In this document: in pieces, positions 14,518-63,200 of the stretch | Layout: the number at the start of each line of letters is the position of its first letter | Position numbering within the stretch: position 1 is the stretch's first letter | DNA from: Norana najaformis | Lineage: Eukaryota; Annelida; Clitellata; Crassiclitellata; Hormogastridae | Direction: 5' to 3' | DNA: 64,000 bases | Assembly (NCBI GenBank): GCA_964023275.1 | Contig: OZ029915.1 | Location: 598,501 to 662,500 of the forward strand | Program-made: the position numbers and the translations under genes | Notes under the pieces: generated by a model | What the model saw: the letters and a program-made list of their open reading frames with translations, nothing else | The model's database searches: none | What the model was told of the DNA's origin: nothing

Positions 14518-14733
14518 CTGAAAAGAACAGCAAGAAAAATGTAGAGAAGTAGTTATCGGAACTATAAAAATCACAATGTATACTAACATTTCCCAAATGA
14601 GTTCATTTTTCTTAAATTTTTACAAAAATATGTCACAAATTTAAAGCATAATGCTGCGATAAAATGCACTTCTACAACGACACCACAGCATTTACCAATA
14701 ACTGCATCTTGTGGCAGAAAAACAGCAACATAC

Positions 14734-36353: not shown

Positions 36354-36648
36354 CAACACTTCACCCCTTGCAAACTGCGCATGTCTTTCACTCAAAACTG
36401 AAAACACTCCTCTTCCGCAGATCATATCCCGATTCTTCCTCTTCCCCTTATCTCTCTAACCGCTCCAATTCCAAACACCGTAGGAGTCCGACTGCGTGCT
36501 GCCCGACTCTTGGATCTCAACCTGGAACCGAACCCTTCCTGGCTATTGATTTTGTTTTGACGTAGCACCTGTGAAAAAGCTGATTCCCGCGACTTAGCTT
36601 TCGTTGGACGCTGTAGAAATCTTGAGTTTACGACTACGATTGCGAAGG
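36354..36648 (+). mobile_element. SINE-like family B, full-length
   Basis: Shares even the 5' part (CTTCACCCCTTGCAAACTGC) with the 3466 copy, so the full unit is about 290 bp. Confidence 0.85.
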
Positions 36649-37643: not shown

Positions 37644-37862
37644 ACCGTAATCGTAATCGTAATTGAGATTTCTACAGTGCCTAACGAAAGCCAGTCACTG
37701 GGACCAGCTTATTCACAGGCGCTCAGTCAAAACAAATTCCATGGGCAAAAAGGGTTAGATTCTAGTTCAATATCCAAGTAAGGCAGAGAGACAGCGTGGC
37801 AGCTACGGTGGGTATTGTTTGGGATTGGAGGGGAAAGAGAGATAAGAGGAAGAAGGGGATTG
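37644..37862 (-). mobile_element. SINE-like family B
   Basis: CGTAATCGTAATCGTAATTG, GAGATTTCTACAGTGCCTAA and downstream body. Confidence 0.85.
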
Positions 37863-38311
37863 GTATGGTGGCAGTGGTATCTCTGCTCACTGCTCACCCC
37901 TTAAACTAACAAGTATATCCATCCATCAGAAGACATGTTGACTCTTGTTGTACCTCGCTCCAGGACAGTGTTTGGCTCTCCAGTGTTTTATAGTAGAACG
38001 AAGAAAATATTAGAATCTTAGAATCGTAAAAGAGTCTTAGAATCATAATTGGAATTAGAGTCGTAGAAGAATCTTAGAAGAGTCTTAGAATCATTTCTTT
38101 GGCAATCGCTAGGTGGCAACCATCACAGCACCACAAAACGTATTTGCATCCCATCTGGAAGTCAGGCTCTGAGGCAGTGGTTCTCAAAGTAAGGTACGCG
38201 GACTGTGGATGGACCTGCGCCAGACGGTTCGCGGCAGAGGCCAACTTCCTAATATTCTCGCAATGTCCTTCCCTGCAGACAACCTTGCTGCTATTTTCTG
38301 ATATTATATTT

Positions 38312-38425
38312 AGTCTGTGTTTGTGGGACACCAATCGATCGGTGGAGGGTTCAAATTCCCGCCCAGGGCAGGAATTTGTTTCTAGATTTCGTCTCCACTT
38401 GCGCCCCCTGCATCCAACTCAGAAA
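38312..38425 (+). mobile_element. tRNA-derived SINE E, partial
   Basis: GAGGGTTCAAATTCCCGCCC AGGGCAGG matches the B-box region of 63325-63480; runs up against a reversed SINE A. Confidence 0.6.
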
Positions 38426-38431
38426 TAATGA

Positions 38432-38580
38432 GTACATTAAACGCCATTTAAGGTCCCCGTGTACGGACCATTCTGGCCAGAGATTCAAATCTCTGAAATA
38501 AGCCACGACGGGGACGCGAACCGGCATCCTCACTCTCAGAGGCTACGCTTTAACCAATGTAGCTAACCAAGCCAGCTATG
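38432..38580 (-). mobile_element. SINE family A, head half
   Basis: The reverse complement shows GCTACATTGGTTAAAGCG (A-box-like) then GGATGCCGGTTCGCGTCCCC (B-box-like). This copy best supports a tRNA origin for the family. Confidence 0.75.
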
Positions 38581-39304
38581 TAGCTAACCAGGCCAATTAT
38601 GTAGCTATAACGAATGCAGCTAATTATTGGGTAATTCAAACCGCCCTGGACTGGACTGGATTGGGTTGGATTAGGTTAGATTGGATAAGATTAGATCAGA
38701 TTATACTGGATTGGATTATATTGGATTTGATTTGATTGGAATGGTTATGTCTGATCGGATGATGGTAGATCGTATATCGCAGCGGATCCGACCCATTGAG
38801 ATCATATCAGCTCCGCTTCTTCGGAGCTACATTCTTGATCCTAACTTTAGTCCATACGATGGTTCCCTGTTGAGCAGATAAATCAGAAGTGGATCTGCTA
38901 GTCGAGGAAATGGATGTTTCCATCTGCTATGATCTCCAGAGGGAGGGAATCTTTCCCACTGGCTGGCGCTGGTTGCTCCCTCTCTACCCAGCCTCCCTAA
39001 TTAATTTCTTAGCCTCCTTTGTAGAACCGCATCCGCGATTTTCCAATTTGCAAGAACCGTTTAACTTCGCCGTCTGTGTAGTCAGAGCTACGCATTCAAC
39101 TGACTGCAGTAGTAACTGGTAACAGGAGACACTTCTATGGCTAAAACGTTCAGAAACGAACTTCGAACTCTACTATCTCCGACCGTCTGACCAACATCGC
39201 TTTCCATTTAGCACCCAGCTATCTTCCCGACTCATCTTCCACCCCGGATACTGGTCTGGCACCCCCAATCTGACGTCACCAGCCTGGCTCTTGCGGACTT
39301 GATT

Positions 39305-39525
39305 TCGTAATCGTAAGCACGAGATTTCTACAGCGCCTAACGAAAGCTAAGTCGCTGGAACCAGTATATTCACAGCTGCTTAGTCAAAACAAAATCCATA
39401 GGCAAGAAGGGTTCGGTTATAGGTCAAGATCCAAGAGTCAGGCAGGCAGACAGTCAGACGGCTACGGTGGACGGTGTTTAGAATTGAACCGGAAAGTGAG
39501 ATAAGAGTAAGAGGAAGACAGGATA
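39305..39525 (-). mobile_element. SINE-like family B
   Basis: CGTAATCGTAAGCACGAGAT through CGGCTACGGTGGACGGTGTT. Confidence 0.85.
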
Positions 39526-40745
39526 GGATTTGTGGAGAAGGAATGTTTTTATATAGCGCCAATGTACAAGCTGGTTTCCATTTGTGTGGCGCTTAGAAAT
39601 TTCGGAGATTTGCATTTACTTTACATACACAAACGTCTGGTGCCAAAAAGCACTTTCAGTGTCGTCAGTACTGCCAAGCAGTGTAGACAATTAGACCCAC
39701 TACAAAAGGTCACAGTAATGTCTGAATGTAGGCCACAGTAGACGTCCTTTATTAGCAGAAAGTTGTCTAGGAGAATTGTGGCCACATTCCAGTGTGTACT
39801 TTTTCAGACACTATTTGTATTAATCTACATTTTTGTATAAATATTTACATGAAAGCATAAGTACTTTGTAAATTTATATACAAATATCGTGAATATTTTC
39901 GCATAAAATAAGTTAATGCACTTAAATGCGCACACAATTGGACTGCATCGTTAGCAAAATGACGGTCTTTTACACAGACATAATCGGTCAATTTTTGTCA
40001 ATTGTCTTCGAAGCGAGGTCGTCGAATGACATAAATTTATGAGCAGCCAGTACATGGTTTGGGTTTGGTCAAATTAACTGGGGTAATTTGGATAAGGTGA
40101 AGCTACGATGCCCGGTCATATTTTATGCTAAATGTGGGGTGAACCTGTGACCTGTGACCTGTGACCTGTTCTGTTTGGAGGTCATTGACGTCAGTTTGAA
40201 CTAAAATTAGTTCACAAGTCTACGACGAATTCTTCACATCACTTTGGCCTTCATGGCCATGTCTTTCTCTGTGTCCTTCTGTCTCTGTCTCTGTCTTTGC
40301 GAGTATGTGTCCTTCTGTTTGAGTATGTCTGTCCTTCAGTTCTGCTGTCCTTCCCACGGATTGTGCTTCTGAGTCTGTCTGCGTGTCTGTCGGCGTGCAC
40401 CTGTGTCTCACCATGTCTGTCCCTCCGTCTGTCTGCCTTATTCCCTGTCTGTCTGTCCTGCGTCTCATAAATAATGAATTCTTTTGAACTGCGAAATCTA
40501 CGATCCGTTGACCTGACAAATTGTACCAACCGCAGTAGACATGGCAGAAGCCACCAGCCAATCACCGCACTGTCTGTCTCTTCATCTGCCTGTCTGACTG
40601 CCTGAGTCCTACTTTGTCATCGCGGCTCAAGGATGAGGGAGAGGAACACCAGCAGCAGCAGTCAGGGTCGTCTACAAGTACCGACGTCTGGGTGGTAAAC
40701 CTCATTCACAAGGACTGGAGCTTCCTCGAGTTATCTACATTCTCC

Positions 40746-40747
<2 letters not shown>

Positions 40748-40798
<51 letters not shown>
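40748..40798. repeat. (GA)n tract upstream of the collagen start codon
   Basis: About 24 GA units, ending 178 bp before ATG 40976. Confidence 0.92.
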
Positions 40799-40975
40799 TT
40801 CAACGGCTGAAGTCAAACCTCAGCCTGTCTCTTTGACAGCCATCGACTGAATACGCATCCCGGCGCTATAGAAGTCCGTAGATTTGATACCGGTAAACCT
40901 GCTTTTATCCACGCGTGGAATGTCGCGCCGGATGTAGTTCGATCTTGAACGCAGCTGAACGGAATACGTCTGAAG

Positions 40976-41072
40976 ATGACAATGTTCGACCGAATTCTCG
41001 TGGTTCACCTGTTCGTTCTTCTTGTGCCTGTTCTTTGCACTGTCATCGATGAACCGGAAACGAAGGCCAAAG
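40976..41072 (+). CDS. Collagen exon 1: start codon and signal peptide
   Basis: ATG ACA ATG opens MTMFDRILVVHLFVLLVPVL then CTVIDEPETKAK, a textbook signal peptide with probable cleavage after LCT or nearby. Donor G/GTGAGA leaves one base (G) that the TSPN exon completes to Ala. The second Met, two codons later, is an alternative start. Confidence 0.82.
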
Positions 41073-41126
41073 GTGAGAAGATAATTGTTAAAGTTCTTCG
41101 TATCTGAACATGAATATAGCGCATTT

Positions 41127-41185
<59 letters not shown>

Positions 41186-44100
41186 CAACAACAATAGCAA
41201 TAGCAATAGCAATAATAATAATAATAGTGATAATGATAATGATAATAATAATAATGATAATGATAGTGATAATGATAATGATAATAATAAGGAGAAGAAG
41301 AAGAACAACAACAACAACGACAATAATAATAATAATAATAGTAGTAGTAGTAGTAATAATAATAATAATATAATAATAATAATAATAATACTAATAATAC
41401 GATTTATAGAGCGCCGTAGTACGGCCGAGGCCGAGAAAAGGGCGCTGTACATGTATAGTTTTTCACTGACTGCATCCACATGCGGCGCAATTGTCAGAAT
41501 ACACACTGTAAAAACAATTAACAAATCAAAACGTCTTGCTATCTTTAAAGGATTCCATAGTGCAACACAATGTTTTAACAGATGCCTACAATACGAAATA
41601 TTAAAATGCTGTTTTTTTTTTTTTTATTTACATTAAATAATTTAGTTATCTAAAGCACCTATAACGCGCGCAATGATTTAGGTAAAAATAAGTGAAGTAT
41701 CCCATATCCCAGAAGTGAGACGTATGGGATGCGTTCATTTCCTTTTCTTTAGGCTCTTGACCCGGCAATGGACGAATCCCAAGGTCCTGGACACGAGACC
41801 AGCGCATTGTATGACTTGCAGTTTACTTCCCAGCCCCGTCAAAATCCGATGAGTCAGAAAAATTAGAGGTTAGGCTACGATGGGTCTTCATGTGATTTAA
41901 TCCTCCACTTTTCGCCCAAAAAAATGAGATCCTTCAGAGCACTGTCTAGACAACTTGTAGAGTAAGTTCTGTGGAAAGTCGATTTTTTTCAGTAGAAGTT
42001 GTTAAGTCGTGATGGAAATGGCTTTAAAAAAGGCGAAGAGCAAAATAGGTCGTTAAAAATTGTGACGAAAAATTGTCGGTGAATGAAAGTACGGCGTTGC
42101 TGTACATGGCCTCCTTTCAACGCTTTCAGACCTGCTACCAAATTATGCTGCTTGGTGACAGAGGCACGGTGTGCGCAAACAACTTGCCCAGGGTCTTTAC
42201 ACGGAGCCGAACCTGCAACCGCATGATCATGACGAAACGCGTTACCGATAGACCACCGTGATGCACAGTTATTATTTAAGGTGAAAGATTACTAACCAGT
42301 TGGACCTGTTATTCAGCAACTCAGTCCCAGTCTTACGGCATTAAAAAAAGTAGTTACAAAAGCAGTTTTAAAGCTGTCAACTACTTTCTCTGAACGAGTC
42401 ATTCACTACTACTTAAACTACTTGAAAAGTAGTTTAAAAGTTAATCTACGTAGTAGTTAGTGCCAATCACTCGATTGCTGCATAAAATACTGATTTTAGA
42501 GCGTGTGTGTGTGTGGTCTGTCAGATATCTCGTTTGCATTCGGTCAACCTTAACCTCGTAAACACAAATACATAATATGCAAAAATATGCATTATGCAAT
42601 GCATATAAAAGTTTCAAGCTGACATGTGTGTGTAAAGGAAACTTATTTATTTATGGTTAAAAATGTCTTCAGCGCTAATTGGTTTAGCCTGGGCTCACGC
42701 CTCGTATATGGGATGCATGGATTCTGTTACGTGTAAGGAAGGAATCTGATCAGGGTTCAAAAATAACCTGGTTAAATGAATAGCAGTTAATGGTCCCAGC
42801 CGCCCCAGGTTCTGCAAAACCACTTTCAAAATGAGTGAATTTCGCAACCGATACTCCATTCCGTTTCTCTGGTCGATTCCGAGATCCAGATGCAATGGAA
42901 CTAAAAGCTGCCGGTGTGGTGCAAGATCAGTTCCGGGGCGAAAACAGTTTTGAAAAATATTGTGATTGGTTCACGTGACCGATGACGTCATGTAGAAGTT
43001 TTCTGCCGTTTCGTCAATCAGAAATAAGATTACGACTGCATAAGTACAGACTGCTAGGGTGAATGCTTGGGCTTTTATTTCTCCACCTACTGAAATATTG
43101 TTTTGCATTAAATTTAACTATCAAGACAACAGAATACTTTAAAATTCGTTTCACTATGTCGTGCTTCGGCAACAAAGTGGGCGGAGTCAGAACTGTTTTC
43201 GCCCCGGAACCGAACTCGCACCACTACACCGGAAGCTGTCCTGATTCTGCAGAGATGGATGGAAGGACGCAAGAGCTTCGGTAAGGGTTTGAGAGCAAGG
43301 GAAGATCTGAAAGTGTTGAAAGAAGGCCATGTACAGCAACGCCATACTTTCATTCACCGACAATTTGTTCGTCACTATTTTTAACGACCTATTTTGCTCT
43401 TTGCCTTTTTTAAAGCCATTTACATCACGACTTAATAACTTCTACTGAAAAAAATCGACTTTTCACAGAACTCACTCTACAAGTTCTCTAGACGGTGCTC
43501 TGAAAGTTCTCATTTTTGGAGCGAAAAGTGGAGGATTAAATCACATGAAGACGCACCGTAGCCTAACCTCTAATTTTTCTGACTCATCGGATTTTGACAG
43601 GGCTTCTCAAGCGAAGTACGAAATTTGACTACGGTTCATTTGAAGCGAACATCGACATAGGCCTTGTTGCTCCATGATAAGGGTGCAGTAGATTAGATTA
43701 GACCTTTGGTCTGCCAGCTTTACGAGCAGAAAGAAAGCTAGGAGAAAAGAAAGGAGGAAAGTCAAAATAAAGAAAGAATAGAGAGTTAAACATACCTAAA
43801 TTAATTAGCAATGAAAGACAGATAGAAATGGAAAACACGCAGGAAGAGAATGAGATACTTAAAAAAAATGGAACATATATTTAGAGCAAGGTTGAAATAT
43901 TTGTGGAGAAGGCACGCGTTATGAATGTATGAGACATGTTCAGCTGGGAAATGCAGTCGCTCTCAACTGTGAGCAGGTTGTCCTATGCATAGTCTAGACA
44001 GTATAATGGAAACCATAGGTACACGAGTATGTGCGAGCAATGCGTGCGTGGGATGTGGCTCTAACAAGTGGCCGACATTAAAACGCAATCGAGTGTTTCA

Positions 44101-44681
44101 GTGAAATTTCGCCAGGTGGCGCTTTTAACAGGTCCAGCAAAGAACTTAACGGCGAGAGACAAGGCCACGACTTGATGTGTATACGTTTGTAATCCGCTAG
44201 GGCAGGTTTTATAGCGCTATTTGATGAAGACAAACAGGCTCTCACGGAATCAGAGAAGCTACAAACATGACTTTGGTAAATTAATTTGTGGTTATTACAT
44301 GAAAACAACTCGGAGGCGGTTTCAAAACAAATGTAGGCGCTGCATATGGATGGATGGATGGATGGATGGATCCAGGGACAGACAGACAGACAGAGAGACA
44401 GATATACATGTACATGTATATAATGGGAATTGAACGAATTGTCTCAGACACATGGACGACGCCTGTTTATCCTTCGATGGGTGTGGCACAAACCATTGGA
44501 ACTACTGCTGGGCCGACCAGCTGTCTGTCTGTCCGTCCCCTTGTTGTATCTTTTATCTCTGCCTCCTTAGTCTCACTGTCTTGGATTCAGGTGATGGCAT
44601 CCACACATCTGTCTGCTACGTTCATCGTTCTATCTTCATTCAAGGCAAACCCTTTGATGCTTACTTTACTCTGTTATCACT

Positions 44682-44716
<35 letters not shown>

Positions 44717-46466
44717 TCTCTCTCTCTTCCTCTTTTTATCTTTCAGTCAGTCAGTCAGTCATTCTGTCAGTCAACATGGATGGATAGATGGATGGATGGT
44801 TGAATAAATGGATACATGAAAGATAAATAAATGGATGGATGGATAGACAGAAGGATAAATGCACCGATGGATGGATGGATATAGAGATGGATGGGGATTG
44901 ATGGATTAATTGAGGGATAGATGGATGGAGTATAGAGATGGATGGATGGATTGACATACAGACTGATTGACTCATGGGTCAGCTTGCCACGTAGCCAATC
45001 TATCTCCATCTGTCTTTCTCCTCTTCTTTCACCACGACAGGTCTCACTTTTTGTTTCACTCTCGCTGTCTCTCTCTCTCTTTCTTGCTCTCTCTTTCTTT
45101 CTCTTTCTGTCTCGCTGTCTCTGTCTTTGTATGTCTGTCTCTGTCTGTCTGTCTCTCTTTCTCTATCGTTCGTCTCCTACTCTATTCTTCTACTTTTTCT
45201 TCATTATATCTCGCTCTCCGTCTCTCTACTTGTCTTCTTTATCAGCAACTTATCTATGATGCTGGTATGCAGGCAGCCTCCTTATCGTTTTCTCTTTGTA
45301 TTTATCTCCATCTTCCGTGCCACTGCCTCTCCTCCCAGCCTCTACGTCTCTCATCACTCGTGGAATTGGATTCGTTCATTCATGCTTTGATGCCCCAGTT
45401 TAGCAACGACTTACCGCGCTCCGTGAGTCTAAATCCGGCATCCGCCTGAAATGGGGTTTCGGTGTGTAATTCTATCCTTCCGACAGAAAACGAGTCGAAA
45501 TGCAATGGTACAGCCTGCCTCGGTTCCTTTACGGGTTGACAAAGATGTTGGACATTGCCCGCTCTCTTCCGATAAAATATACAGTGATGGTAAACCTGTT
45601 ACTCGCGTGGATGATTGCTACTGCAGTCAACTGAAAACCCAGAAATTATTGTAGGATGGGGAAAACACGGAAGAAAGAAGGCGGATAAAGGTAAGGTAAT
45701 TTAGATAAAGGTGAGGTAAGACAAGAGAAGGTATGGTCAAATCAGGTCAGGTTAGGCCATAAAGGTAACTGTAATCTCAAGATGTCTACAGCCACCACTG
45801 AAAGCTAATTCACGGGAACCAGCGTATTCACAGGTGCTCATTCAAAACAAAATCGATAAGCGTTTAAGTCAGTTTCGTTTTCGGGTCAAAATCTAAGGGT
45901 CAGAAGGCTACTGTGGATGGTGTACGGTTACAGTGGGTGGTGTAATTAAGTAAGATAAGGTATGGCCAGATAAGGTAAGGTACAAGAAAGATAAGATAAG
46001 GTATGGCCAGATAAGGTAAGGTACAAGAAAGATAAGGTATGGCCAGATAAGGTAAGGTACATTACAATCGCTCATTTATTAAGCGCCTCTATCAACAATG
46101 ATACTGAGTGTGGGCCAAGAGTAGTTGGGAGACTGATTGATACACGTACAGATGAAATACAGCGACCTATCATTATTTACCTTGTGGATCATATAGTTCC
46201 TTCGTAATTAATTGGCATCGCTGACCACATTTCATATCCAGATGGGCTTAACTTAATCTAATTTGATTAACTTAATCTAATCTAACTGGGCAGAGTAGCC
46301 GATTGGGAGCTCGGCAGCCGATTGGCTCGGCTTGTAACGCGGAGAGTACGGGTTCGAGGCTCCCCTGAGACGGTTACTGTGTAGGGCCATTGAGCAAGTC
46401 CTTAACTCACAATTGCTTCGTGCATCAGATTCAGATTTACTCATCTTGCGAGCATAAAATATGCAA

Positions 46467-46529
<63 letters not shown>

Positions 46530-48377
46530 TACAACAATAAGAGCAATAATAATAATAATAATTATAATCATAATTATAATAATCTAACCCAAATTAATCC
46601 ACGATCAGGATAAATCAGATCAGATTTGAGCAGATTAGATTCCGCCATAATGTTGAGACTATGTCTTTATGTGTTTAGCCGACCCGGACCTAGACTTATT
46701 AAGATTGATCGGGTCTCGTTTCCACTTCAACCGCGGAAGACTTACGCCTGGTCCAGAGAGACTACCAGCTTTCTACTTTGACCGTCGAATGTTGCGTTAC
46801 CGTCTCCCGTCCCGAGTCCTCATCCATCCACTCAGTTCCTCCTTCGCCCTCATTGCCAGGTTCCGACCCGATCTAGGGTCCCGTGGGTACCTCCTCGCTG
46901 CCCCGGACCAGTCAACGGGAATCGTCAAGTTCGGACTGAAGCTGAGTCCATCCGGGAGGGACGGTGTGGACATCACCCTGGCGCTTCCCACTCCAGTCAA
47001 CGTGACCTTTTCAGGGTTTTCCGTTGATGACATTGACGAGAAGTGGACTGAGTTGATCTTCATCGTGAAAGACGATGTCGTCAAGCTGTACGTCAATTGC
47101 ACTTACCACGGTCGAGTGAACATCAAGAATGGAAAGAGTGTGACAAAGGCATCGACGTTGCTACAGGATACGGTCCTGGCCATTGTTCCGGGTGAATTTG
47201 GCCGGGGATTTCTGGTACGCTTGCAACAGAATTTTCAAGTTTTCTATCTGAAATGTCTTCGTAAATTATGTTGCGCCATAAAATTCATTGTAAAGCATTC
47301 TTCCTCTTACCCTTATCTCACTTTCCGATTCAATTCTACACACCATCAACCTTAGCTGTATGACTATTTGCCCGTCTGACTCCTGATCTGGAACCGAACC
47401 CTTTTGTTTAGATCGAGCGCCTGTGAATATCTAAGCTGGTTCCCGCGACTTGGCTTTCGTTAGGCGCTGTAGAAATCTCGAGCTTACAATTACGATTACG
47501 AATAGATCTCGACTTATTCTGTCCAAGAGATTATGATGGTCCTATAGCAATTCGTTTCTGCTTAGAAGCGACCATCGCTCGAAGCCTTCTGCGTTAAGAA
47601 ACAGAGCTATTGACGTTTACAGATAGTGTTAGACTAGATTAGATAGTATATCTTAAGGCTGTCTAGCAAATGAAATTTGTTTAATCTTTATTCGTCATAT
47701 TCCAACAGAAATAAACTTCTACCAGTGGCGAAAAACGAAGCTTCCGTAAATGTCCAATGTCTGTAAGCATTGTACCGGAATTTTGTTTTACTGAGAGTAT
47801 ACTTCTGAGTACTTTGTTCTTTAAGAGGCGCTATATAAGTTATCAAATACGATACATAAGTATTCAAGAAAGTTGTCTATGTTTTAGGGCAGCGTACAGA
47901 CGCTGCGGTTTAGCACCAAGCTGAAGAGTGTCTTAGACCACTGCGAGGACCTCGTTGAGGTAAGACGACGAGACCACTAAATTTCCAACAGATGCATGTA
48001 ATGTAATGTAATGACTACAATTTATATAGCATCGTAAGTAGCAGGCTACTTCTAGGGTGCTTTACAAAGTCAAAAGTCATATGATAAACTAAGAGTAGGC
48101 CTATATAGAATTTCAGTGTTTCTTAAAAAGGTTGACACTTTTGGACTCCTGAATGGATGCCGGAAGACTTTTCCAGGGACGCGGGCCTTCTATCTCTTAA
48201 TGGAGATTTTATTTGAGATGCTACACCTGCCTCGCCTTGACTACCTCTGAAAGTTGATTATGATTATGATTATGAATTATTATGATTATAACAAAGGTTA
48301 TGGAAAAGATTATGGATACGATTCTGGTTACAGTAGATTACCATCGTGATAAAATTATGGCCTTCATGAGAGCTTCG

Positions 48378-48414
<37 letters not shown>

Positions 48415-51400
48415 TCATAATCAACATCATCATTTCAATTATTAATAATGATTTTATTATTAGTAAAAAGTTACTGTAATATTTTCAGCCAGAATCTCTG
48501 CCTGGAAGTAGCGAAGGCGATCAGATGGTTGTTGTCACAGGACACGAAACAACAGAATCTGAAGTAAATGCAAAACTAACGATGTTTCATCATCCAATTT
48601 TAAATTCCGAGGTTTTCAAAAACAACTTCGGAAATTCTTAGAAGTAGGTACTGTCGTTGGATTGCTGTGGTTGCGTTCGTTCGTGCCTCAGCCAAACGAT
48701 TTCTTAGGCCTTGGAACTCATCTAGATTCCTCGTTCGGCTGATTGACATGTGGCATGCTGACAAATGCCCAATTACTTACTTACCTGTATGATTATGTAC
48801 TTACTTACTTATACACTAACTTGCATATCATGCCAAATTACTTACTTACCTAGTAACTTACTTCTATACTTACTTACTTACTTATTTAATTCAAAATGTG
48901 TACCATTTGCTTTTAAGTTTCCTGTTAATTACAACGCTCAGAATTGATGATGTTAAATAAAAAGACTGCGAACAGGGCTTCTTAATTCAGAATAAATTGA
49001 TAAGATAAATGATGAAATTGAACGTTACTGCAAATAGCACTGAACTTAAAAGCCAACGGCGCTCATGGCATCGATCAAGACGATGGTCAAAGTTTGGATG
49101 GAGTGATGAACATTAGACGGGAACAATGAGTGGCTATATATTGATGACAATCGCTGCATAGGTGGTTTTACAGGATGAACGAATGTGAAGATGACTGACG
49201 AATGACAAGAATGATTGATGATGATGGTGGTGATGCTGGTCATGACGGTGGAAATGATAAAGATAATGAGGGTGAAGGTGAAGTCGAAAACGACGGCTCA
49301 CAAAACGAACATGACAGTACTGAAGTTATTTCAAAAAGGTCAGACACATAGATTGAAAGAAACAAAGAATTTATTAATTAATTAGCTAATAAACGAAAGA
49401 AAAACGAACAAGAGAACGGTATGTCGTTCAATTTACTTACTTACTTTCTAACTCAATTCGTTCAATCTTACAGTCGTTCAATTTAAGCAGCGATGGATTG
49501 AATGCTTTACCTTTGTGTTTTCTCAGGACAAGAAATCGAATGGAGAAACCCCTACTGGTGGAGAAGAAATTCACCTAGAAATAACAAGGCATCGAGATGA
49601 AAGAATTGATTCAGAGGAACTAGAAGGCAGAGGTGGGAGCATTGAAGGAGGCAGAGAAGAACCAACTGATGAAGACAAGAGTGGAAGAAAAGATGGAGAC
49701 AGAAGCGGAAGAATAGATTTAGAAACAGGAATTGTTGTTGATCGTTCAGAGCAAGTAACCGTAAGTGAAAAGGTTGAATCAGAAACAGGATTTGATGTTG
49801 ATCATGCAAAGCAAGTAACCGTACGCGAAGGAGTTCAATCAGAAACAGGATTAGATGTTGATCGTGGAAAGCAAGTTATCGGAAGCGGAAGAGTTGAATC
49901 GGGAACAACAGTTGATACTAATTTGGAAGAAACTGCTAGAAGACGGTGGAGTGTTGACGCAAACAGTGGTGTGAGAATAGATGTAAATAGAGGTGGAAGA
50001 ATAGATTTTGAAGTCGAAGTTGATGATGAATCGAAATCGGGTGCTAGAAGACGGTGGATTATTGACCGGAGCACAGGTGTGAGAATTAATGTAAGTACTG
50101 ATGGAAGAGTAGATTTGGAAACCGGAGTTGATTCAGATTCTGATGAGCAAGTAGAAAGAGGTGAAACTTTCGAATTGGAACCTGGCGTCGATGTTGATTC
50201 CGAAGAGAATGCTGGAAAACTGTGGATCATTGATGGAAAAGAAGGCGTTAGAGTTATTGTGAGTAGAGGTGGAAGAATAGATTTAGAAACTGGAGTTGAT
50301 ACTGATCCTGAGAAGATTGCTGGAAGTCGGTGGAAAATTCGTGAGGGCAGAGGAACGAGAATTGAAGTAGGTGCAGATGGAAGAATATATTTGATAACTG
50401 GATCTGATGTTGATCGTGAAAAGCAATTACTCGGAAGCGGAACAGATGATTCGGAAACAGGAGTTGATGTTGATCGTAGAAAGCAAGTTGTCGGAAACGG
50501 AAGAGTTGAATCGGAAACAAGAGTTGATGTTGATCATGCAGAGCAAGTAACTGTAGGCGACGGAGTTTATTTAGAAACTGGAGTTGATGCTGATCATACA
50601 GAACAGGTAACTGTAGACGACAAAGTTAATTTAGAAACAGGATTTGATGACGATCATGCAGAGCAAGTAACTGCGGGCGAAGAAGTTGATTCCGAAACTG
50701 GAGTTGATGTTGATCATACAGAACAAGTAACTGTAGGCGACAGAGTTGATTCAGAAACTGGAGTTGATGACGATCATGCAGAGCAAGTAACTGTAGCCGA
50801 AAAACTTGATTCCGAAACTGGAGTTGATGTTGATCATACAGAACAAGTAACTGTAGGCGACAGAGTTGATCTAGAAACTGGACTTGATGCTGATCATGCA
50901 GAGCAAGTAACCGGGCGCGAAGGGGTTCAATTAGAAACAGGAATAGATGTTGATCGTGGAAAGCAAGTTATCGGAAGCGGACGAGTTGAACCGGGAACAA
51001 GAGTTGATACTGATTTGGAAGAAACTGCTAGAAGACGGTGGAATGTTGACGCAAACAGTGGTGTGAGAATAGATGTAAATAGAGGTGGAAGAATAGATTT
51101 TAAAGTCGAAGTTGATGATGAATCGAAATCGGGTGCTAGAAGACGGTGGATTATTGACCGGAGCACAGGTGTGAGAATTAATGTAAGTACTGATGGAAGA
51201 GTAGATTTGGAAACCGGAGTTGATTCAGATTCTGATGAACAAGTAGAAAGAGGTGAAACTTTCGAATTGGAACCTGGCGTCGATGTTGATTCCGAAGAGA
51301 ATGCTGGAAAACTATGGATCACTGACGGAAAAGAAGGCGTTAGAGTTATTGTGAGTAGAGGTGGAAGAATAGATTTAGAAACTGGATTTGATACTGATTC

Positions 51401-54400
51401 TGAGGAGATTGCTGGAAGTCGGTGGAAAATTCGTGAGGGCAGAGAAACGAGAATTGAAATAGTTACAGATGGAAGAATATATTTGGTAACTGGATCTGAT
51501 GTTGATCGTGAAAAGCAATTACTCGGAAGCGGAACAGATGATTCGGAAACAGGAGTTGATGTTGATCGTGGAAAGCAAGTTATCGGAAGCGGAAGAGTTG
51601 AACCGGGAACAACAGTTGATACTGATTTGGAAGAAACTGCTAGAAGACGGTGGAATGTTGACGCAAACAATGGTGTGAGAATAGATGTAAATAGAGGTGG
51701 AAGAATAGATTTTGAAGTCGAAGTTGATGATGAATCGAAATCGGGTGCTAGAAGACGGTGGATTATTGACCGGAGCACAGGTGTGAGAATTAATGTAAGT
51801 ACTGATGGAAGAGTAGATTTGGAAACCGGAGTTGATTCAGATTCTGATGAGCAAGTAGAAAGAGGTGAAACTTTCGAATTGGAACCTGGCGTCGATGTTG
51901 ATTCCGAAGAAAATGCTGGAAAACTGTGGATCATTGATGGAAAAGAAGGCGTTAGAGTTATTGTGAGTAGAGGTGGAAGAATAGATTTAGAAACTGGAGT
52001 TGATACTGATCCTGAGAAGATTGCTGGAAGTCGGTGGAAAATTCGTGAGGGCAGAGGAACGAGAATTGAAGTAGGTGCAGATGGAAGAATATATTTGATA
52101 ACTGGATCTGATGTTGATCGTGAAAAGCAATTACTCGGAAGCGGAACAGATGATTCCGAAACAGGATTTGATGTTGATCATACAGAACAAGTAACTGTAG
52201 GCGACAGAGTTGATTTAGAAACTGGAGTTGATGTTGATCATACAGAACAAGTAACCGTAGGCGAAATAGTTGATTCAGAAACTGGAGTTGACGTTGATCG
52301 TGCAGAGCAAGTAACTGTAGGCGACAGAGTTGATTTAGAAACAGGAGTTGATGCTGATCATGCAGAGAAAGTAACTGTAGGCGACAGAGTTGATTCAGAA
52401 ACTGGAGTTGAAGGCGATCATGTAGAGCAAGTAACTGTAGCCGAAAAACTTGATTCCGAAACTCGAGTTGAAGGCGATCATGCAGAACATGTAACTGTTG
52501 GCGACAGAGTTGATTTAGAAACAGGAGTTGATGTTGATCGTGCAGAGCAAGTAACTGTAGGCGAGAGAGTTGATTTAGAAACCGGATTTGATGTTGATCA
52601 TGCAGAGAAAGTAACTGTAGGCGACAGAGTTGATTCAGAAACTGGAGTTGAAGACGATCATGTAGAGCAAGTAACTGTAGCCGAAAAACTTGATTCCGAA
52701 ACTCGAGTTGAAGGCGATCATGCAGAACAAGTAACTGTTGGCGACAGAGTTGATTTAGAAACAGGAGTTGATGTTGATCGTGCAGAGCAAGTAACTGTAG
52801 GCGAGAGAGTTGATTTAGAAACCGGATTTGATGTTGATCATGCAGAGAAAGTAACTGTAGGCGACAGAGTTGATTCAGAAACTGGAGTTGAAGGCGATCA
52901 TGTAGAGCAAGTAACTGTAGCCGAAAAACTTGATTCCGAAACTCGGGTTGAAGGCGATCATACAGAACAAGTAACTGTAGGCGACAGAGTTGATTCAGAA
53001 ACTGGAGTTGATGCTGATCATGCAGAGCAAGTTACCGGGCGCGAAGGGGTTCAATCAGAAACAGGATTAGATGTTGATCGTGGAAAGCAAGTTATCGGAA
53101 GCGGAAGAGTTGAATCGGGAACAACAGTTGATACTGATTTGGAAGAAACTGCTAGAAGACGGTGGAGTGTTGACGCAAACAGTGGTGTGAGAATAGATGT
53201 AAATAGAGGTGGAAGAATAGATTTTAAAGTCGAAGTTGATGATGAATCGAAATCGGGTGCTAGAGGACGGTGGATTATTGACCGGAGCACAGGTGTGAGA
53301 ATTAATGTAAGTACTGATGGAAGAGTAGATTTGGAAACCGGAGTTGATTCAGATTCTGATGAACAAGTAGAAAGAGGTGAAACTTTCGAATTGGAACCTG
53401 GCGTCGATGTTGATTCCGAAGAGAATGCTGGGAAACTATGGATCACTGACGGAAAAGAAGGCGTTAGAGTTATTGTGAGTAGAGGTGGAAGAATAGATTT
53501 AGAAACTGGATTTGATACTGATTCTGAGGAGATTGCTGGAAGTCGGTGGAAAATTCGTGAGGGCAGAGGAACGAGAATTGAAATAGGTACAGATGGAATA
53601 ATATATTTGGTAACTGGATCTGATGTTGATCGTGAAAAGCAATTACTCGGAAGCGGAACAGATGATTCGGAAACAGGAGTTGATGTTGATCGTAGAAAGC
53701 AAGTTATCGGAAGCGGAAGAGTTGAATCGGGAACAACAGTTGATACTAATTTGGAAGAAACTGCTAGAAGACGGTGGAGTGTTGACGCAAACAGTGTTGT
53801 GAGAATAGATGTAAATAGAGATGGAAGAATAGATTTTGAAGTCGAAGTTGATGATGAATCGAAATCGGGTGCTAGAAGACGGTGGATTATTGACCGGAGC
53901 ACAGGTGTGAGAATTAATGTAAGTACTGATGGAAGAGTAGATTTGGAAACCGGAGTTGATTCAGATTCTGATGAGCAAGTAGAAAGAGGTGAAACTTTCG
54001 AATTGGAACCTGGCGTCGATGTTGATTCCGAAGAGAATGCTGGGAAACTATGGATCACTGACGGAAAAGAAGGCGTTAGAGTTATTGTGAGTAGAGGTGG
54101 AAGAATAGATTTAGAAACTGGAGTTGATAGTGATTCTGAGAAGATTGCTGGAAGTCGGTGGAAAATTCGTGAGGGCAGAGAAACGAGAATTGAAATAGGC
54201 ACAGATGGAAGAATATATTTGGTAACTGGATCTGATGTTGATCGTGAAAAGCAATTACTCGGAAGCGGAACAGATGATTCGGAAACAGGAGTTGATGTTG
54301 ATCGTAGAAAGCAAGTTGTCGGAAACGGAAGAGTTGAATCGGAAACAAGAGTTGATGTTGATCATGCAGAGCAAGTAACTGTAGGCGACGGAGTTTATTT

Positions 54401-57193
54401 AGAAACTGGAGTTGATGTTGATCATACAGAACAAGTAACTGTAGGCGATAGAGTTGATTTAGAAACAGGAGTTGATGCTGATCATGCAGAGAAAGTAACT
54501 GTAGGCGACAGAGTTGATTCAGAAACTGGAGTTGAAGACAATCATGTAGAGCAAGTAACTGTAGCCGAAAAACTTGATTCCGAAACTCGGGTTGAAGGCG
54601 ATCATGCAGAACAAGTAACTGTTGGCGACAGAGTTGATTTAGAAACAGGAGTTGATGTTGATCGTGCAGAGCAAGTAACTGTAGGCGAGAGAGTTGATTT
54701 AGAAACAGGAGTTGATGTTGATCATACAGAGAAAGTAACTGTAGGCGACAGAGTTGATTCAGAAACTGGAGTTGAAGGCGATCATGTAGAGCAAGTAACT
54801 GTAGCCGAAAAACTTGATTCCGAAACTCGAGTTGAAGGCGATCATACAGAACAAGTAACTGTAGGCGACAGAGTTGATTCAGAAACTGGAGTTGATGCTG
54901 ATCATGCAGAGCAAGTTACCGGGCGCGAAGGGGTTCAATCAGAAACAGGATTAGATGTTGATCGTGGAAAGCAAGTTATCGGAAGCGGAAGAGTTGAATC
55001 GGGAACAACAGTTGATACTGATTTGGAAGAAACTGCTAGAAGACGGTGGAGTGTTGACGCAAACAGTGGTGTGAGAATAGATGTAAATAGAGGTGGAAGA
55101 ATAGATTTTAAAGTCGAAGTTGATGATGAATCGAAATCGGGTGCTAGAAGACGGTGGATTATTGACCGGAGCACAGGTGTGAGAATTAATGTAAGTACTG
55201 ATGGAAGAGTAGATTTGGAAACCGGAGTTGATTCAGATTCTGATGAACAAGTAGAAAGAGGTGAAACTTTCGAATTGGAACCTGGCGTCGATGTTGATTC
55301 CGAAGAGAATGCTGGGAAACTATGGATCACTGATGGAAAAGAAGGCGTTAGAGTTATTGTGAGTAGAGGTGGAAGAATAGATTTAGAAACTGGAGTTGAT
55401 AGTGATTCTGAGGAGATTGCTGGAAGTCGGTGGAAAATTCGTGAGGGCAGAGAAACGAGAATTGAAATAGGCACAGATGGAAGAATATATTTGGTAACTG
55501 GATCTGATGTTGATCGTGAAAAGGAATTACTCGGAAGCGGAACAGATGATTCGGAAACAGGAGTTGATGTTGATCGTAGAAAGCAAGTTGTCGGAAACGG
55601 AAGAGTTCAATCGGAAACAAGAGTTGATGTTGATCGTGCAGAGCAAGTAACTGTAGGCGACGGAGTTTATTTAGAAACTGGAGTTGACGTTGATCATACA
55701 GAACAAGTAACTGTAGGCGATAGAGTTGATTTAGAAACAGGAGTTGATGCTGATCATGCAGAGAAAGTAACTGTAGGCGACAGAGTTGATTCAGAAACTG
55801 GAGTTGAAGACGATCATGTAGAGCAAGTAACTGTAGCCGAAAAACTTGATTCCGAAACTCGAGTTGAAGGCGATCATGCAGAACAAGTAACTGTTGGCGA
55901 CAGAGTTGATTTAGAAACAGGAGTTGATGTTGATCGTGCAGAGCAAGTAACTGTAGGCGAGAGAGTTGATTTAGAAACAGGAGTTGATGTTGATCATGCA
56001 GAGAAAGTAACTGTAGGCGACAGAGTTGATTCAGAAACTGGAGTTGAAGGCGATCATGTAGAGCAAGTAACTGTAGCCGAAAAACTTGATTCCGAAACTC
56101 GAGTTGAAGGCGATCATACAGAACAAGTAACTGTAGGCGACAGAGTTGATTCAGAAACTGGAGTTGATGCTGATCATGCAGAGCAAGTTACCGGGCGCGA
56201 AGGGGTTCAAGCAGAAACAGGATTAGATGTTGATCGTGGAAAGCAAGTTATCGGAAGCGGAAGAGTTGAATCGGGAACAACAGTTGATACTGATTTGGAA
56301 GAAACTGCTAGAAGACGGTGGAGTGTTGACGCAAACAGTGGTGTAAGAATAGATGTAAATAGAGGTGGAAGAATAGATTTTGAAGTCGAAGTTGATGATG
56401 AATCGAAATCGGGTGCTAGAAGACGGTGGATTATTGACCGGAGCACAGGTGTGAGAATTAATGTAAGTACTGATGGAAGAGTAGATTTGGAAACCGGAGT
56501 TGATTCAGATTCTGATGAACAAGTAGAAAGAGGTGAAACTTTCGAATTGGAACCTGGCGTCGATGTTGATTCCAAAGAGAATGCTGGAAAACTATGGATC
56601 ACTGATGGAAAAGAAGGCGTTAGAGTTATTGTGAGTAGAGGTGGAAGAATAGATTTAGAAACTGGAGTTGATAGTGATTCTGAGGAGATTGCTGGAAGTC
56701 GGTGGAAAATTCGTGAGGGCAGAGAAACGAGAATTGAAATAGGTACAGATGGAAGAATATATTTTGTAATTGGAGTTGACGGTGGTCCTGAGGACCATGT
56801 AGGCAGAGTCGTAAGGACAGATTTAGAAACTGGAGTTGGTGTCGAGTCCGAAGACAGCGCAGGAAGAGGTTTGAGAATCGATGGTGTGACAGCAAGTAGA
56901 GTCGAGTCGGAATCCGGAATAGATACCGAAGATAGATTTGTCATTGTTCATAGCCGTGATTCAAGAGAACCAGATATTTCAGGTTAGTGATTGTAATTCG
57001 TGTCTTATTAAAAATTTCACTGGTAGTTTCTAACATTTGGTTTCTATGAATGATGCCAAATTCCATCTTTATAGCTGAATTTCATTGTTATCGTTATTAG
57101 ATTGAATATAGTTTTGTTAAGTTTTTCACTTGCGTGATTCTTATTGAATGACACCTTTTGTGGTGTTTAAGAAACCTTGCTCATGCAAAATTT

Positions 57194-57239
<46 letters not shown>

Positions 57240-60200
57240 TGTATGATATAAACTTAAGTGTTTTATCAAACCTTTTCCTCTGGTTTGGCTTTTAAGATGT
57301 TCCCGCATCACAGTTGATTGCAAAAGAATTCTATCATTTTAAAAATCTCGAGAAACTCAGCCGCTTTATTTATAAGTTTGAGGTATCCATATTTGGTTGT
57401 GTATGACTAAACTAGACCAAGCTATACCACGCTAGAATAGACTAGACGCATACTGGATTAGACTGGTCGGGATATGATTGGAAAGGATTAGGCTGTATTA
57501 GACAATTGGATTGGATCTTGGGTAAGTCTTCAGCTTATGACTGACGAGTGCTTAACGACATCGACAAATGCCTTTACTTTATGAAGCGCAATTTAATTTT
57601 GCAGGAACTACCACGGGTAGCGATAGGACATCGGGAGGAGAGCGGGAGGAAGAGGAAGAGGAGGAGAAGAAGCATGCGAGGGCAGTGGTGGCGGTGGTGG
57701 AAGAGGAGAAGGGTTCTGGACAGCCGGAGCCAACGGGAGAGGCCGTCGTGTTTGAACAGAAAGAATCCTCTAAGGAAAGTAAACGACACGAAGAGGAGGA
57801 GCCTAGTTCGAGTCCAGTTTCCCCAACCCACACTGACGACAGAGTAAGTGCCTATTCGAGTTTCCTCTTGTTATATTATTCAGTCTAATGGCAAATAATG
57901 CGATGTAATCTCGTGAAATTTTATGAAGGATTATCTAATGCGATGGACGCGATGATGTAGTGGTATGGTCTATGCCTCGTAACCAGAGGGTTATGCGTTC
58001 GAATCTGCCTCAAGCCACTGCGTAGCGACGACCTTGAACAAGTTGCTCACCCCAGTTCTTTGTGAGGAAGGCAACGGGAAAGCACCTCACTCATCTCATA
58101 AAGCCAGTGGACCTGCCTTCGGGCAAAGAACTCATCATCATCTAATCCAAACTAATATAACTGAAGCGGCTAATGTACGTAACCTAACGCATTATGACTT
58201 AGAGCAATGCAGCGTAGGGTAATGCAGGAAAGTACGGATGTAATAGTACAAGGATAGCAGGGTGAAAGAAGTGAAAGGTGGAGAAATAAATTTGGGAAAT
58301 AAGCGAGGAGAGAAAGAGAAAAGAAAAGAGGAAAGAAAGGCGAAAGGAAAAAGGAAAAAGTAATGTTGACAAGAGAATGACGGAAGGAAGGACAGATAAG
58401 GTAATGTAAGATAAGATAAGATAAGATAAGATAAGATAAGAAAGATAAGAAAGATAAGAAAGATAAGATAAGAAAGATAAGATAAGATCAGATAAGATAA
58501 AGTGAGGCAAGTATGAGGCAAGGTAAGGTATGGTAAGGTAAGGTAAAGTAAGGTCAGGTGAGATGAGGTGAGGTGAGGTTAGCTGAGACAAGACTGGAAA
58601 AGACAAAGTCATTATGTAAGAAGAAGATTATCTTGAGCTACCAGAGGGTCCGGAGCAAAGACTTCGACTGCGCCACAGTTAGGCACCTTACACTTATGAT
58701 GACCAGGAGCGCATTACATCAAAAGTCTGGAACCAGCGCGTCTTGAGTCAGAAGGATGGGTGACTCACCCACCATCCAAGACATAGGAAACAAATGCGTA
58801 AAACACTCATCTAAGAAACTCCCAAGAGACAGGGCGAGGCATCGGCGACGGACAGACGCCGAGACACTTCGACGGGAGAAGAGAGAGACCACGCAGGCAT
58901 ACAGAAAGTGATGGAGGAAGGGATAGAGGAAGGGAGAGAACCAGCCAGGCAGACAGGAAAGGGATGGATGGATAGAGAAAGGGATAGAGCCAGTGAGGGA
59001 GGGGTAGGAAAATGAGGAAGCCAAGGAGGGAGGAAGCAAGAGATGGATGGTGGAAGAAGGGAGGTAGGAAAGGATAGAATAAGAAAGAGAGGGAGGGAGC
59101 GGATGAGGGAGAGGGAGAGAAAGAGCGAAGTGGGAGGGAAGAATGGGAGAAAGGTGGGGAGGCAGGATGGCATGGAGGGAGGCACTGTGGATGGACAGAA
59201 GGACGAGCTGAGGCAGAGGACTCGTTGATCTTAGGGGCGGTGCAGAGTAATATGAGAAGATGATCAACTGAATGTTCTTATGATAGTGGCCAGCCACCGT
59301 CTGCCGACACTTATCCGAAATACTCCATAAGTCCACAACTGTTGCACCGAAGAATTTCAGAGGGAGAAGAGAAAGAAGGACGGATGGAGGGATAGAGTTG
59401 TTTGGTCTGTGGAGTTACTTTCGATGGCAAACAGTCCTCTCAGCTGCGGCTGAGTAAACACTGCAGCTGCTGCGTACTTTGAAGGAATGAAAGCGATTTT
59501 TAGATGGGTGAAACGAAACAGGACTTCGTCAAAACACCAGACACGGTTTTATAATCAAAAGTGGCATAGTTATGTTCAGCCCAGAGTAGAGAACCTAAAC
59601 ATACTATGCTTGCCATACCTAATACATGTTAATAAAGTTTAATATAAATATATACATGCGTTCCTACTTAACAACTTACTTGCCTAAATACCCACCTACC
59701 TACCTCCTACCTACCTACACACTTGCGTATGTACAGTATGCATGCATGCATGCTTGTTTGCGTCGAAACTTCATATGGCGCCTTTATATATCTCACAAAA
59801 GCATAAGTAGGTTCGTGTTCAACTATTTACCTACTTACCTACTTAACTGCATACCAGACTACTTAATTATCTACCTACCTACTTACCTACCCAATTACTT
59901 AAGATACTTCTGTGATTCTGTTGCTAGAGTGAGGGCTTTTCTCAGCCGACCGTTTCCCAGCCTACGACTCACTACTCACGACCTGACGAAAGCGACTACG
60001 ATTACAACAGCTACGATGATAAAGACAACAACACGATCATTTATGAAGTCACCAGAGCAGCACATCCTCCGACCCCACCTAGTTTGGCAGCGTCGTCGAC
60101 CAATCAGTACGAACCACTTCACCCAGATGTAGTAGCTACACACGACTACGAAAAGCTTGGTGAGGATTGGACATTTGTCTATTTTTAGAAACAGGATTGG

Positions 60201-63200
60201 TGTCGACGAACTTTCGTAGTGGACAACGATCGCTTTTCGAACCGTCGACTCGTCCCTTTCGTAGCTTAGCGTTGACTCGAGTAGACACAGCCTTTGATTT
60301 TATAAATTATAGTTAAACGAACAGCTTAGTCACAACAGCATGTGAATCATCACAGTCTCTAAACGCATGAGTTTACCAACGACATTTGTAACTCAGGCTT
60401 TCAATTTAGCAAACGCCAGATCAGTGCTACAAATCATCGCGCTCTCTGCTACAAAATTGTTTGCACTCGCTTATAATAAGCCCTTTCTAGCCGAGATAGC
60501 AGACTAGTACAAACTGGATTAGACCCGCCTCCAGTTATTGTGCAATCGTGTGTTTTTCTTAAAACTCGCTGACTCATCGTAACACAGGCCGCGCGAGCGT
60601 CCACGTGACAAAATACGCATCCAATAATTTACTGCTGATGTTGGCCCGCCTAACCGTTGCGCACTGCACCACCCCACCAAGTGTCTGACCCGTGGCAGTC
60701 GTAATCACGTGATGAACGCATTCAAAAATAAATCAAATAACCCAGTGACTTATGAAAATGTCCTACTCAATATGCACTCAAAACTTGCTGTAGCGCAATA
60801 TTACGTTCACCGTCGGATTATGAAAGTTTAGCAGTACGGTTGGCTTTAAAGTGTTGAGGATTAGGCCTAACTAATCAAGTAACTGCAGAATCTAATCTAG
60901 TAAATGCAGAATCTAACAAATGGGATTAGATTATCGAAGCGCATTTTGTAACTGTATTTCTGATTGTTCGTTTTATTCAAAGAATCAATCGAGGCGACAG
61001 TTGGATCGAAGGACGAAGTTAGTTCCACGCCACATGTACAGGACTTCACGACAAAGTATCCGCCGAGGGAACGTCATGGCATCGATCTCCCGACGGTAAG
61101 ATACTGATTTATCTAACTTCTATTGATTTACTGATCGACTGACTGGCTGATTGATTGATTGACTGATTGATTGATCGATTAAGTTAATGACTTCTGTTTG
61201 ACATGTACTTATGTATGCTTTCATTTATTTGTGTACAGATTCATTTGTTAAATTGTTCTAATGCTGGACTGCTATTTTCTCACTTCCTTAACTTGTTCTC
61301 ACGTTCGTTCATTCACTAATACAAATTTTGTTTTCTTAGTTCATTCATTCTTCCTCTTATTCGTTAATGAGCTAATTCATTCATTCATTGATTCACCGAT
61401 TCATTCATTCATCAGTTTATTCTTTCTCTCTCTCGTTCGTTCCATTATTTATTGCATCATTGATTAACATTGATAGATTGGTAAGGTAAGGCGACGTCAA
61501 CGGCCGTGGCAGCCAAATTTGCATCAGGATGCCGGTTCGCAACCGAATCGTGGCTTATTTCAGAGATTTAAATCTCAGACTAGCACGGTCTGTACACGGG
61601 AACCTTAAATGGAGTGGCGCCCATTCAAACGGACAGCGGAGATGAAGGGTCTCACTCAATTAATTCAGTGAAAATGAACAGGGTCCAGGCCATACCCTCG
61701 CTCTAGAAAAAAACCTGTACATTTAGGGGGCTTACACTTACATTTGAGATGTCGATAAACAATGGTTACTACTACTTAATCGACCCACAGCTTTGAGTGT
61801 TTGAGCCCTTTTAATGACTGTGTTCGAAAGGGAGGAGTGGCGTCAACTCAGCCCACAGCTGCCTCTCAGCCTCAGGAAACGGACTCAGATTTTGATGACG
61901 AGGTCGACGAACAAGATAAAGACGACAAAGACGACGACGCCAGTCCAGAAATGCCTCTTCATCCGCCTACCCGACCTGACCTACATTTGCCGTTGACCAA
62001 TCAGAGTGAACCTCATGACCCGTTTAGGGTTATCTTTGACGATATTATATCCGGTGAGGATTGGACACTTGCTATTATTATAGTCAACGCAACTGGCTTA
62101 TATAGCGCTACTCCATTCGCTGCGTTGTGTTATATTGTATAGTATCCTATTGTTTTGCATTGTATTATATTGTATTGCATTGTTTTGCATTGTATTGTAT
62201 TACATTTTTACATTGTTTATGCATTGCATCGTATTGTTTTCCATTGTTTCTTATTGGTTTGTATTGCGCCGTATTCTACTGTATTGTATGTATGGTACTG
62301 AATTGCATTGTATTACAAAATCGTCTTTTTCTGTTGTGTTCAGCGGCAAGTCCTGATCCAAAGGAAGTTGTCTACCAGGCGACTGATGGACCGATTGACG
62401 CAGATTCAGAGACAAGAAAACCTCAAACAGATGGTCAAGAGGCTTCTGTAAGCAGACGCAGGGAGGACAGTGTTAAGGCTACTCATGTTTACATATTACG
62501 AATTTCCACCATGGCCTTGATCAAAAATGATTAACGAAAAATCTGGCTATAGCGTGTGGTGTTTGGAATTGTACCGGAAACTGAGATGAGAGGAAGGGGA
62601 AGGAGTGAAGTGTTGGTGAGTTCGTATGACGGGTAAGATATTTGGGAATATAAAACTTGAATTCTGTGTGATTACGTTGGCTGAGATTAGATTAAATCGG
62701 AATGGACTGGATTTGGCTGGACTTGACTGGATTGGACTGGGCTGAACTGAACTGGACTGAACTGAACTGAACTGAACTGAACTGGATAGGACTGGACTGG
62801 ACTAGATCAAACCATATCAGGTTTGATGTTGGCTTAGGTTCGGCTGTGTGTTATTCCTCTGTGACACATTGTATTATTGTGTTAAACTGAACTGAGTGGG
62901 ACTGATATGTGATTGGGTTAACTTATGTTGTAACATGTAGATTGTGTTGCATATGCAGACTTATGTTGATCGCGACGACGGTGATTCCGGGACTGATTGG
63001 ACGTCGAAACGCCCATCGGATCACGGGGTTCTCATCCAGGGTCCTCCAGGCCCACCCGGTCTCCCTGGGCCTCAGGTATTTTGTCCCACCCCACTCCCCC
63101 TAGGAAGGAATTTCCTTCCTATAACTGCATCGTTAAATGATAACCAACAGATATGGTATTTGGTAAGGTATGGTAAATCGTAATTGTAATCTTCAAACTC

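Follow-up and report, generated by a model that had tools for sequence, protein, structure and literature searches.

Collagens XV and XVIII, the multiplexins, are the closest described relatives of the gene treated here, which lies in 64,000 nucleotides of the Norana najaformis genome (contig OZ029915.1, called C3 below; C3:598501-662500, hereafter the window) and in which one giant repetitive exon of 7,456 bp (49527-56982, + strand) separates a TSPN-like domain from the collagen helix. The likeness lies in the order of parts, namely a signal-peptide-like start, TSPN, a non-collagenous spacer, Gly-X-Y (with breaks in the short part that is visible) and a C-terminal endostatin; the difference lies in size, with a spacer that alone runs to 2,841 residues here as against 1,388 for the whole human alpha1(XV) chain, as given in the available part of PMC7852327. 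Collagens of the V/XI class have a fibrillar C-propeptide (COLFI) in the place where endostatin and a stop codon follow here, though no search was aimed at COLFI itself.

Other proteins offer parallels to the exon rather than to the gene. Exon 12 of aggrecan (regions CS1 and CS2) is likewise one large exon of an extracellular core protein built of short tandem repeats, 19 residues long there and 20 here, and its CS repeat copy number varies, according to the text available; it differs in that CS1 carries two Ser-Gly per 19-residue repeat (PMC4648834, as excerpted), whereas only 13 of the 67 twenty-residue units here carry one. Sea urchin fibrillar collagens have serial non-collagenous SURF modules in their N-propeptides, ahead of the helix, but these have four Cys each and 16 of them were deduced from exons in one intron (PMC2852846, in the sections available), while the repeats here have no Cys and occupy a single exon. 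MUC2, MUC6 and filaggrin also have a very large repetitive coding exon (12,753 bp for filaggrin exon 3, in the excerpt consulted), though they belong to other protein families and are not collagens.

Because the SURF modules are known, the growth of repeats ahead of a collagen helix has a precedent, and the present case takes to an extreme the enlargement of a region whose variability is established. The combination and the size appear to be new; no paper on a multiplexin with such a giant repeat exon was found, which is weak evidence, as the search was thin on subscription papers. This genome, with four endostatin loci, one of them with a 7.5-kb repeat exon, offers a natural test of two questions, how far apart TSPN head and helix can be and whether the spacer serves by its length and charge alone. 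It is also an example of how in-frame repeat growth may make a single gene copy encode a matrix protein of quite different character.

The giant exon and its repeats

On the + strand, a reading frame is open from 49452 to 56984. The exon within it, the fifth of the gene model, has the acceptor TTTTCTCAG/GACAAG and the donor CAG/GTTAGT, is entered in phase 0 and left in phase 1, and encodes 2,485 residues. This agrees with the first-pass annotation of the window, made from its letters alone, which had described one uninterrupted frame in a single exon of about 7.46 kb with phase-compatible junctions. The same annotation had called the exon Cys-free and acidic, and so it is: its protein has no Cys and no Met, with 311 K+R against 635 D+E (net charge -324, or -0.13 per residue; computed isoelectric point 4.34), while Val makes up 14.6% of the residues. 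The lack of an in-frame Met argues against a separate gene. By computation, 64 distinct tryptic peptides of 7-30 residues would be released from it.

An open run of 2,485 codons has a chance probability of about 10^-86 at this base composition, though repeats in tandem should be judged by the chance for a single unit, about 0.2 for 20 codons. The stronger points that set the exon above chance are the joining phases, the regular in-frame tiling and the ending of the arrays within the exon, which outweigh the length of the open frame.

Units of three lengths tile residues 66-2413 completely. The 20-residue unit (consensus ETGVDVDHAEQVTVGERVDS) occurs 67 times, and the 28 longer units, of which 21 have 36 residues and 7 have 38, are grouped in seven large modules. 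The length of 2,485 residues earlier given for the repeats is that of the exon, and regular units fall short of it at both ends, with 65 irregular residues before the first and 72 after the last. Each 20-residue unit that precedes a 38-residue unit has its last two residues in common with that unit. All on the + strand, the series begins with a short run of 20-residue units (49722-49895; the last, before a 38-residue unit, has 18 residues plus the 2 shared), followed by large module copy 1 (49896-50453; 38+36+20+36+36+20 residues), an array of 20-residue units (50454-50987), large module copies 2 (50988-51545) and 3 (51600-52157), the longest array of 20-residue units (52158-53111) and large module copies 4 (53112-53669) and 5 (53724-54281). 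Two further arrays of 20-residue units, 54282-54995 and 55554-56267, lie on either side of copy 6 (54996-55553), and copy 7 (56268-56801) closes the series, regular to 56765 and divergent after. The largest copied blocks, 53724-54995 (which starts with copy 5) and 54996-56267, are 98.8% identical, and the array is best read as young, nested and inflated by recent duplication. In the 36 distinct 20-residue units Thr2 never changes, 35 have Asp7 and 35 an acid at position 5, and only Val or Leu stands at position 12.

A 183-residue module has eight matches in the whole genome (608 Mb in 17 contigs), all eight of them within exon 5, and BLAST with exon 5 gave no match elsewhere in the window and none at the three paralogous loci described below. 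A pattern scan of prokaryote genomes yielded 32 matches, none of them a relative. Several candidate domains were rejected. Pfam NNH6 and PKD_3, both over cut-off, and DUF2326, under it, were reported for the whole exon as weak sums over repeats, with no stretch matching alone at E 0.1; the isolated module gave 12.5 bits to PKD_3 (cut-off 26.3) and no NNH6. An NCBIfam autotransporter barrel (28.6 bits, cut-off 16) likewise had no stretch matching alone and was discarded together with three weak NCBIfam matches, and the single match from a PDB sequence search of exon 5, at E 0.11, is taken as chance.

The antisense (-) strand of the array, 49552-56947, has long open stretches as well, up to 436 codons, which the purine bias and the periodicity of the repeats probably explain.

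Gene model and assignment to the multiplexins

The model runs from the ATG in exon 1 to the end of the window and comprises twelve exons and 3,137 codons without a stop; all features are on the + strand. Exon 1 (40976-41072) encodes a signal-peptide-like start (MTMFDRILVVHLFVLLVPVLC...), with another ATG at 40982; it ends in phase 1 and joins exon 2 in frame. It is the better of two candidates from a scan of 34901-46678 for a signal-peptide exon, with a hydrophobic-stretch score of 3.22 as against 2.79 for 40253-40322, and was judged by hydrophobicity alone. Exon 2 (46679-47214) encodes the TSPN-like domain, recognised by profile match and by tblastn to the paralog exons; exon 3 (47888-47959; phase 0 at both ends) encodes the end of the domain, contains a Cys and extends the thrombospondin-1 match. 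The spacer starts with the 25 residues of exon 4 (48489-48563), also of phase 0 at both ends, and extends to the first Gly-X-Y triplet at 63040, so that 2,485 of its 2,841 residues come from exon 5.

The giant exon had also been placed between TSPN and the collagen helix, a position upheld by the TSPN profile (E 7.6e-4, below) and by the in-frame model on to Gly-X-Y. It had further been said to adjoin Gly-X-Y exons directly, which is not the case, as five non-collagenous exons intervene between 57605 and 62447: the Glu-rich exon 6 (57605-57843), exon 7 (59928-60159), exon 8 (60983-61095), the acidic exon 9 (61831-62053) and exon 10 (62344-62447). Exon 11 (62959-63075) holds the end of the spacer and the first triplets, from 63040, and exon 12 (63853-64000) encodes Gly-X-Y with breaks and continues past the window edge. 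In 63040-64000, the part that is visible, Gly-X-Y comes in short stretches with breaks. The exon pairs 49527-57843, 59928-61095 and 61831-62447 have the same phases in all three cases (0 to 1, then 1 to 0), and the donor flanks gtgaggattggaca are common to exons 7 and 9; together these suggest exon-pair duplication.

Beyond the window, the next 60 kb of C3 were fetched and read from C3:667501 on, the first 5 kb being outside the reading. Three exons at C3:667501-669060 encode 146 residues of endostatin followed by a stop codon, the start of the first exon lying outside the sequence read. They match Pfam Endostatin (PF06482) at E 8.2e-51 over profile positions 31-167 of 170, that is, nearly completely, and collagen XV and XVIII chains in the PDB at E about 1e-39. 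With endostatin exons downstream, the gene with the giant exon is by sequence a multiplexin, of the collagen XV/XVIII kind, which narrows the earlier choice between classes V/XI and XV/XVIII. Their order, strand and distance suggest that Gly-X-Y and endostatin are parts of a single transcript. The trimerization domain expected in the NC1 of a multiplexin would fall within the 5 kb outside the reading.

At the other end of the gene, a TSPN profile built from the four copies in this genome gave E values of 7.6e-4 for the thrombospondin-1 N-domain, 0.024 for collagen IX and about 0.3 for NEL/NELL2, and exon 2 matched the paralog exons by tblastn at E 5e-8 to 1e-10. The domain can be called TSPN-like, and it is diverged.

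Paralogous loci

Four endostatin loci are found genome-wide (12 exon matches, three at each): that of the giant-exon gene, C3:2365242-2366842, C2:30602170-30604065 and C1:28484050-28489069. By comparison, a single multiplexin is reported for worm, fly and echinoderms in the portions available of reviews including PMC7852327. The three paralogs were compared over 60 kb per locus, 5 kb upstream of the TSPN of the C3 paralog being left out. In all three a TSPN exon is followed, after 2.9, 9.1 and 2.9 kb, by the first Gly-X-Y stretch of at least six triplets, and none has a giant exon, in that no + strand open stretch of at least 160 codons lies between TSPN and Gly-X-Y (the longest has 141). Endostatin identity among the four loci is 47-58%; that of TSPN is 39-40% among the three paralogs and 24-28% between them and the giant-exon gene. 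The giant exon thus marks one copy of an old family, the copy whose TSPN is also the most diverged.

The distance from the first Gly-X-Y (63040) to endostatin (C3:667501) is at most about 6 kb in the giant-exon gene, as against roughly 13-20 kb in the three paralogs. The helix region of this gene may therefore be shortened, 5 kb of that region lying outside the reading.

Coding potential and splicing

Because exon 5 is entered in phase 0 and left in phase 1, skipping it alone shifts the frame, and a stop follows after 407 codons. Purines make up 64.7% of the exon, no pyrimidine run in it is longer than 5, and it contains no acceptor-like sites, as called by a simple rule, whereas the 13,613 bp of the gene's introns contain 35.

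In-frame stops are absent from the changes between copies: there are none among 79 unique changes in the 20-residue units (3.4 expected, P 0.024) and none among 41 in the large modules (1.8 expected, P 0.15); because of shared sequence, the results are not independent of each other. The unit spacings are in frame in 66 of 66 cases, in part by construction, because the units were found in the translated frame. The ratio of nonsynonymous to synonymous differences per site (pN/pS) in the coding frame is 0.86 for the large modules, 0.81 for the 20-residue units, 0.88 for the 36-residue units and 0.93-0.96 between unit classes; with values of 0.81-0.96 between copies, the identity of the residues is hardly constrained. 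In sum the frame is open throughout and its residues are almost free to change. The corresponding rate ratio (dN/dS) was tried as proof of coding and set aside, since it gave no discrimination between frames.

Proposed role and alternative explanations

The reading that we favour, and consider probable, is that of a multiplexin gene in which a single giant coding exon has expanded the N-terminal non-collagenous region, from TSPN head to first triple helix, into a secreted acidic spacer. The exon would be part of the normal mRNA, and its product, polyanionic and free of Cys, would keep the TSPN head at a distance from the trimeric collagen stem, with length, charge and lack of Cys mattering rather than exact residues. 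The TSPN heads of collagen XV often protrude from multimers, and human collagen XV is credited with 18 putative chain sites, most of them towards the N terminus, and with an estimated 4 to 20 chains (both from the part of PMC7852327 available); a tether of the kind proposed would lengthen the outward reach of such heads, and the moderate number of Ser-Gly sites here could bear glycosaminoglycan chains as in known multiplexins. The earlier suggestion that the spacer may govern distance, charge or hydration in the matrix was guessed from composition. A bolder version is offered tentatively: one of four multiplexins may have acquired a polyanionic tether of about 2,800 residues, poor in glycans and tunable in length, selected for length and charge and not for sequence, and varying in copy number between individuals, which could give the animal's matrix a property of reach, hydration or ion binding that the other multiplexins lack.

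Several observations weigh against the favoured reading. At the 5' end of the gene, single-sequence searches with TSPN were not significant (thrombospondin-1 at E 0.52 with exon 2 and 0.048 with exons 2-4), and Pfam Laminin_G_3 stayed below cut-off for the TSPN region; at the 3' end, the 5 kb between the visible Gly-X-Y and endostatin lie outside the sequence read, so the link is one of order, strand and distance. Within the array, pN/pS in the other five frames ranges from 0.50 to 1.06, and substitution patterns favour neither the coding frame nor a fixed function at the level of residues. As to splicing, strict donor-like sites number 15 in exon 5 as against 6 in the 13,613 bp of introns; all 15 are in phase 0, unfit for exon 6 and fit for exon 7, with which the frame is kept. 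The frame is also kept when exons 5 and 6 are skipped together and exon 4 is joined to exon 7, so that an isoform without the repeats is possible.

A serious rival, though one to which we give only limited credence, is tolerated repeat growth, in which the exon is translated and its great length has no function, in-frame duplications being neutral as long as the frame is kept and no stop is added. The values of pN/pS near 1 between copies fit this well, as do the blocks of up to 98.8% identity, which suggest very recent expansion, and the fact that no comparable exon was seen at the other three endostatin loci. It accounts less readily for the absence of stops from all 95 regular units and for the constancy of certain positions in the distinct 20-residue units (Thr2 in all, Val or Leu at 12, Asp7 and the acid at 5 each in 35 of 36), and a chain of this length would presumably be costly.

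Possible too, if doubtful to a like degree, is that exons 5 and 6 form an alternative cassette, included in some tissues only, with short and giant isoforms of the protein. The in-frame join of exon 4 to exon 7 would permit this, and the sea urchin 1-alpha collagen, with a short form and a putative long form that includes SURF-module exons (in the available part of PMC2852846), is a precedent; against it, two exons would have to be skipped jointly. The worry voiced in the first-pass annotation, that transcripts might skip the exon, is accordingly reduced as far as exon 5 alone is concerned, where skipping shifts the frame, and persists for the joint skip of exons 5 and 6, with its possible repeat-less isoform.

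A proteoglycan core, in which the repeats would form a chondroitin or heparan sulfate bottle-brush like that of the aggrecan CS regions, grafted onto a collagen, seems unlikely. Multiplexins are described as proteoglycans in the sources available, exon 5 contains 33 Ser-Gly as against a mean of 18.5 in shuffled sequences, and the pattern D/E-x(1-2)-S-G/A is found at 17 sites as against 12.1 in shuffles; this last excess is nevertheless within the range of 1,000 shuffles (maximum 24), and the repeats make the counts non-independent. An aggrecan-type brush calls for Ser-Gly in every repeat, and Ser-Gly is too sparse for that here, in 13 of 67 twenty-residue units as against the two per 19 residues of CS1 as excerpted. 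Hydration by way of dense glycosaminoglycan sites is thus not favoured.

It is rather improbable that the 20-residue units stack as a beta-solenoid, making the spacer a stiff rod of set length. AlphaFold2 gave 16 units a regular beta-strand pattern with a 20-residue period (mean predicted local distance difference test score, pLDDT, 68.4; predicted template-modelling score, pTM, 0.66), and the Val content noted above would suit such a fold. The same program, however, turned 36 of 50 models of random 20-residue repeats into beta-solenoids (PMC11795689, in the part available), the large module had pLDDT under 50, and a PDB search with the array model gave 316 matches at E <= 10 and none at E <= 0.001, the best 50 of the 316 having a lowest E of 7.5e-3 and a highest TM of 0.20. 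Since this is a known artefact on random repeats and no PDB match reached E <= 0.001, the predicted solenoid is given no weight.

Long near-identical blocks are hard to assemble, and such blocks (98.8%) are present, but an assembly error, or an intronic satellite taken for an exon, is very improbable, given that both splice junctions are phase-compatible, that the arrays end inside the exon, and that 20-residue units differing at 23-29% of sites have no stops in this frame as against 7-120 in the other five.

Neighbouring sequence

Upstream of the multiplexin gene in the window, 33901-35025 on the - strand matches Pfam Zip at E 4e-44 and is the gene, or an exon, of a ZIP zinc transporter, and 11468-14602, also on the - strand, is a 1,045-codon open frame with no Pfam match over cut-off. 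The segment 26209-26889 on the + strand has a hAT dimerisation match over cut-off (E 1.6e-5) and a weak one to DUF6451 below cut-off, and looks like mobile-element debris. Downstream of the window, at about 6056-9199 of the fetched stretch L002, there are frames resembling the start of what we take, by recognition, to be a GalNAc-transferase.

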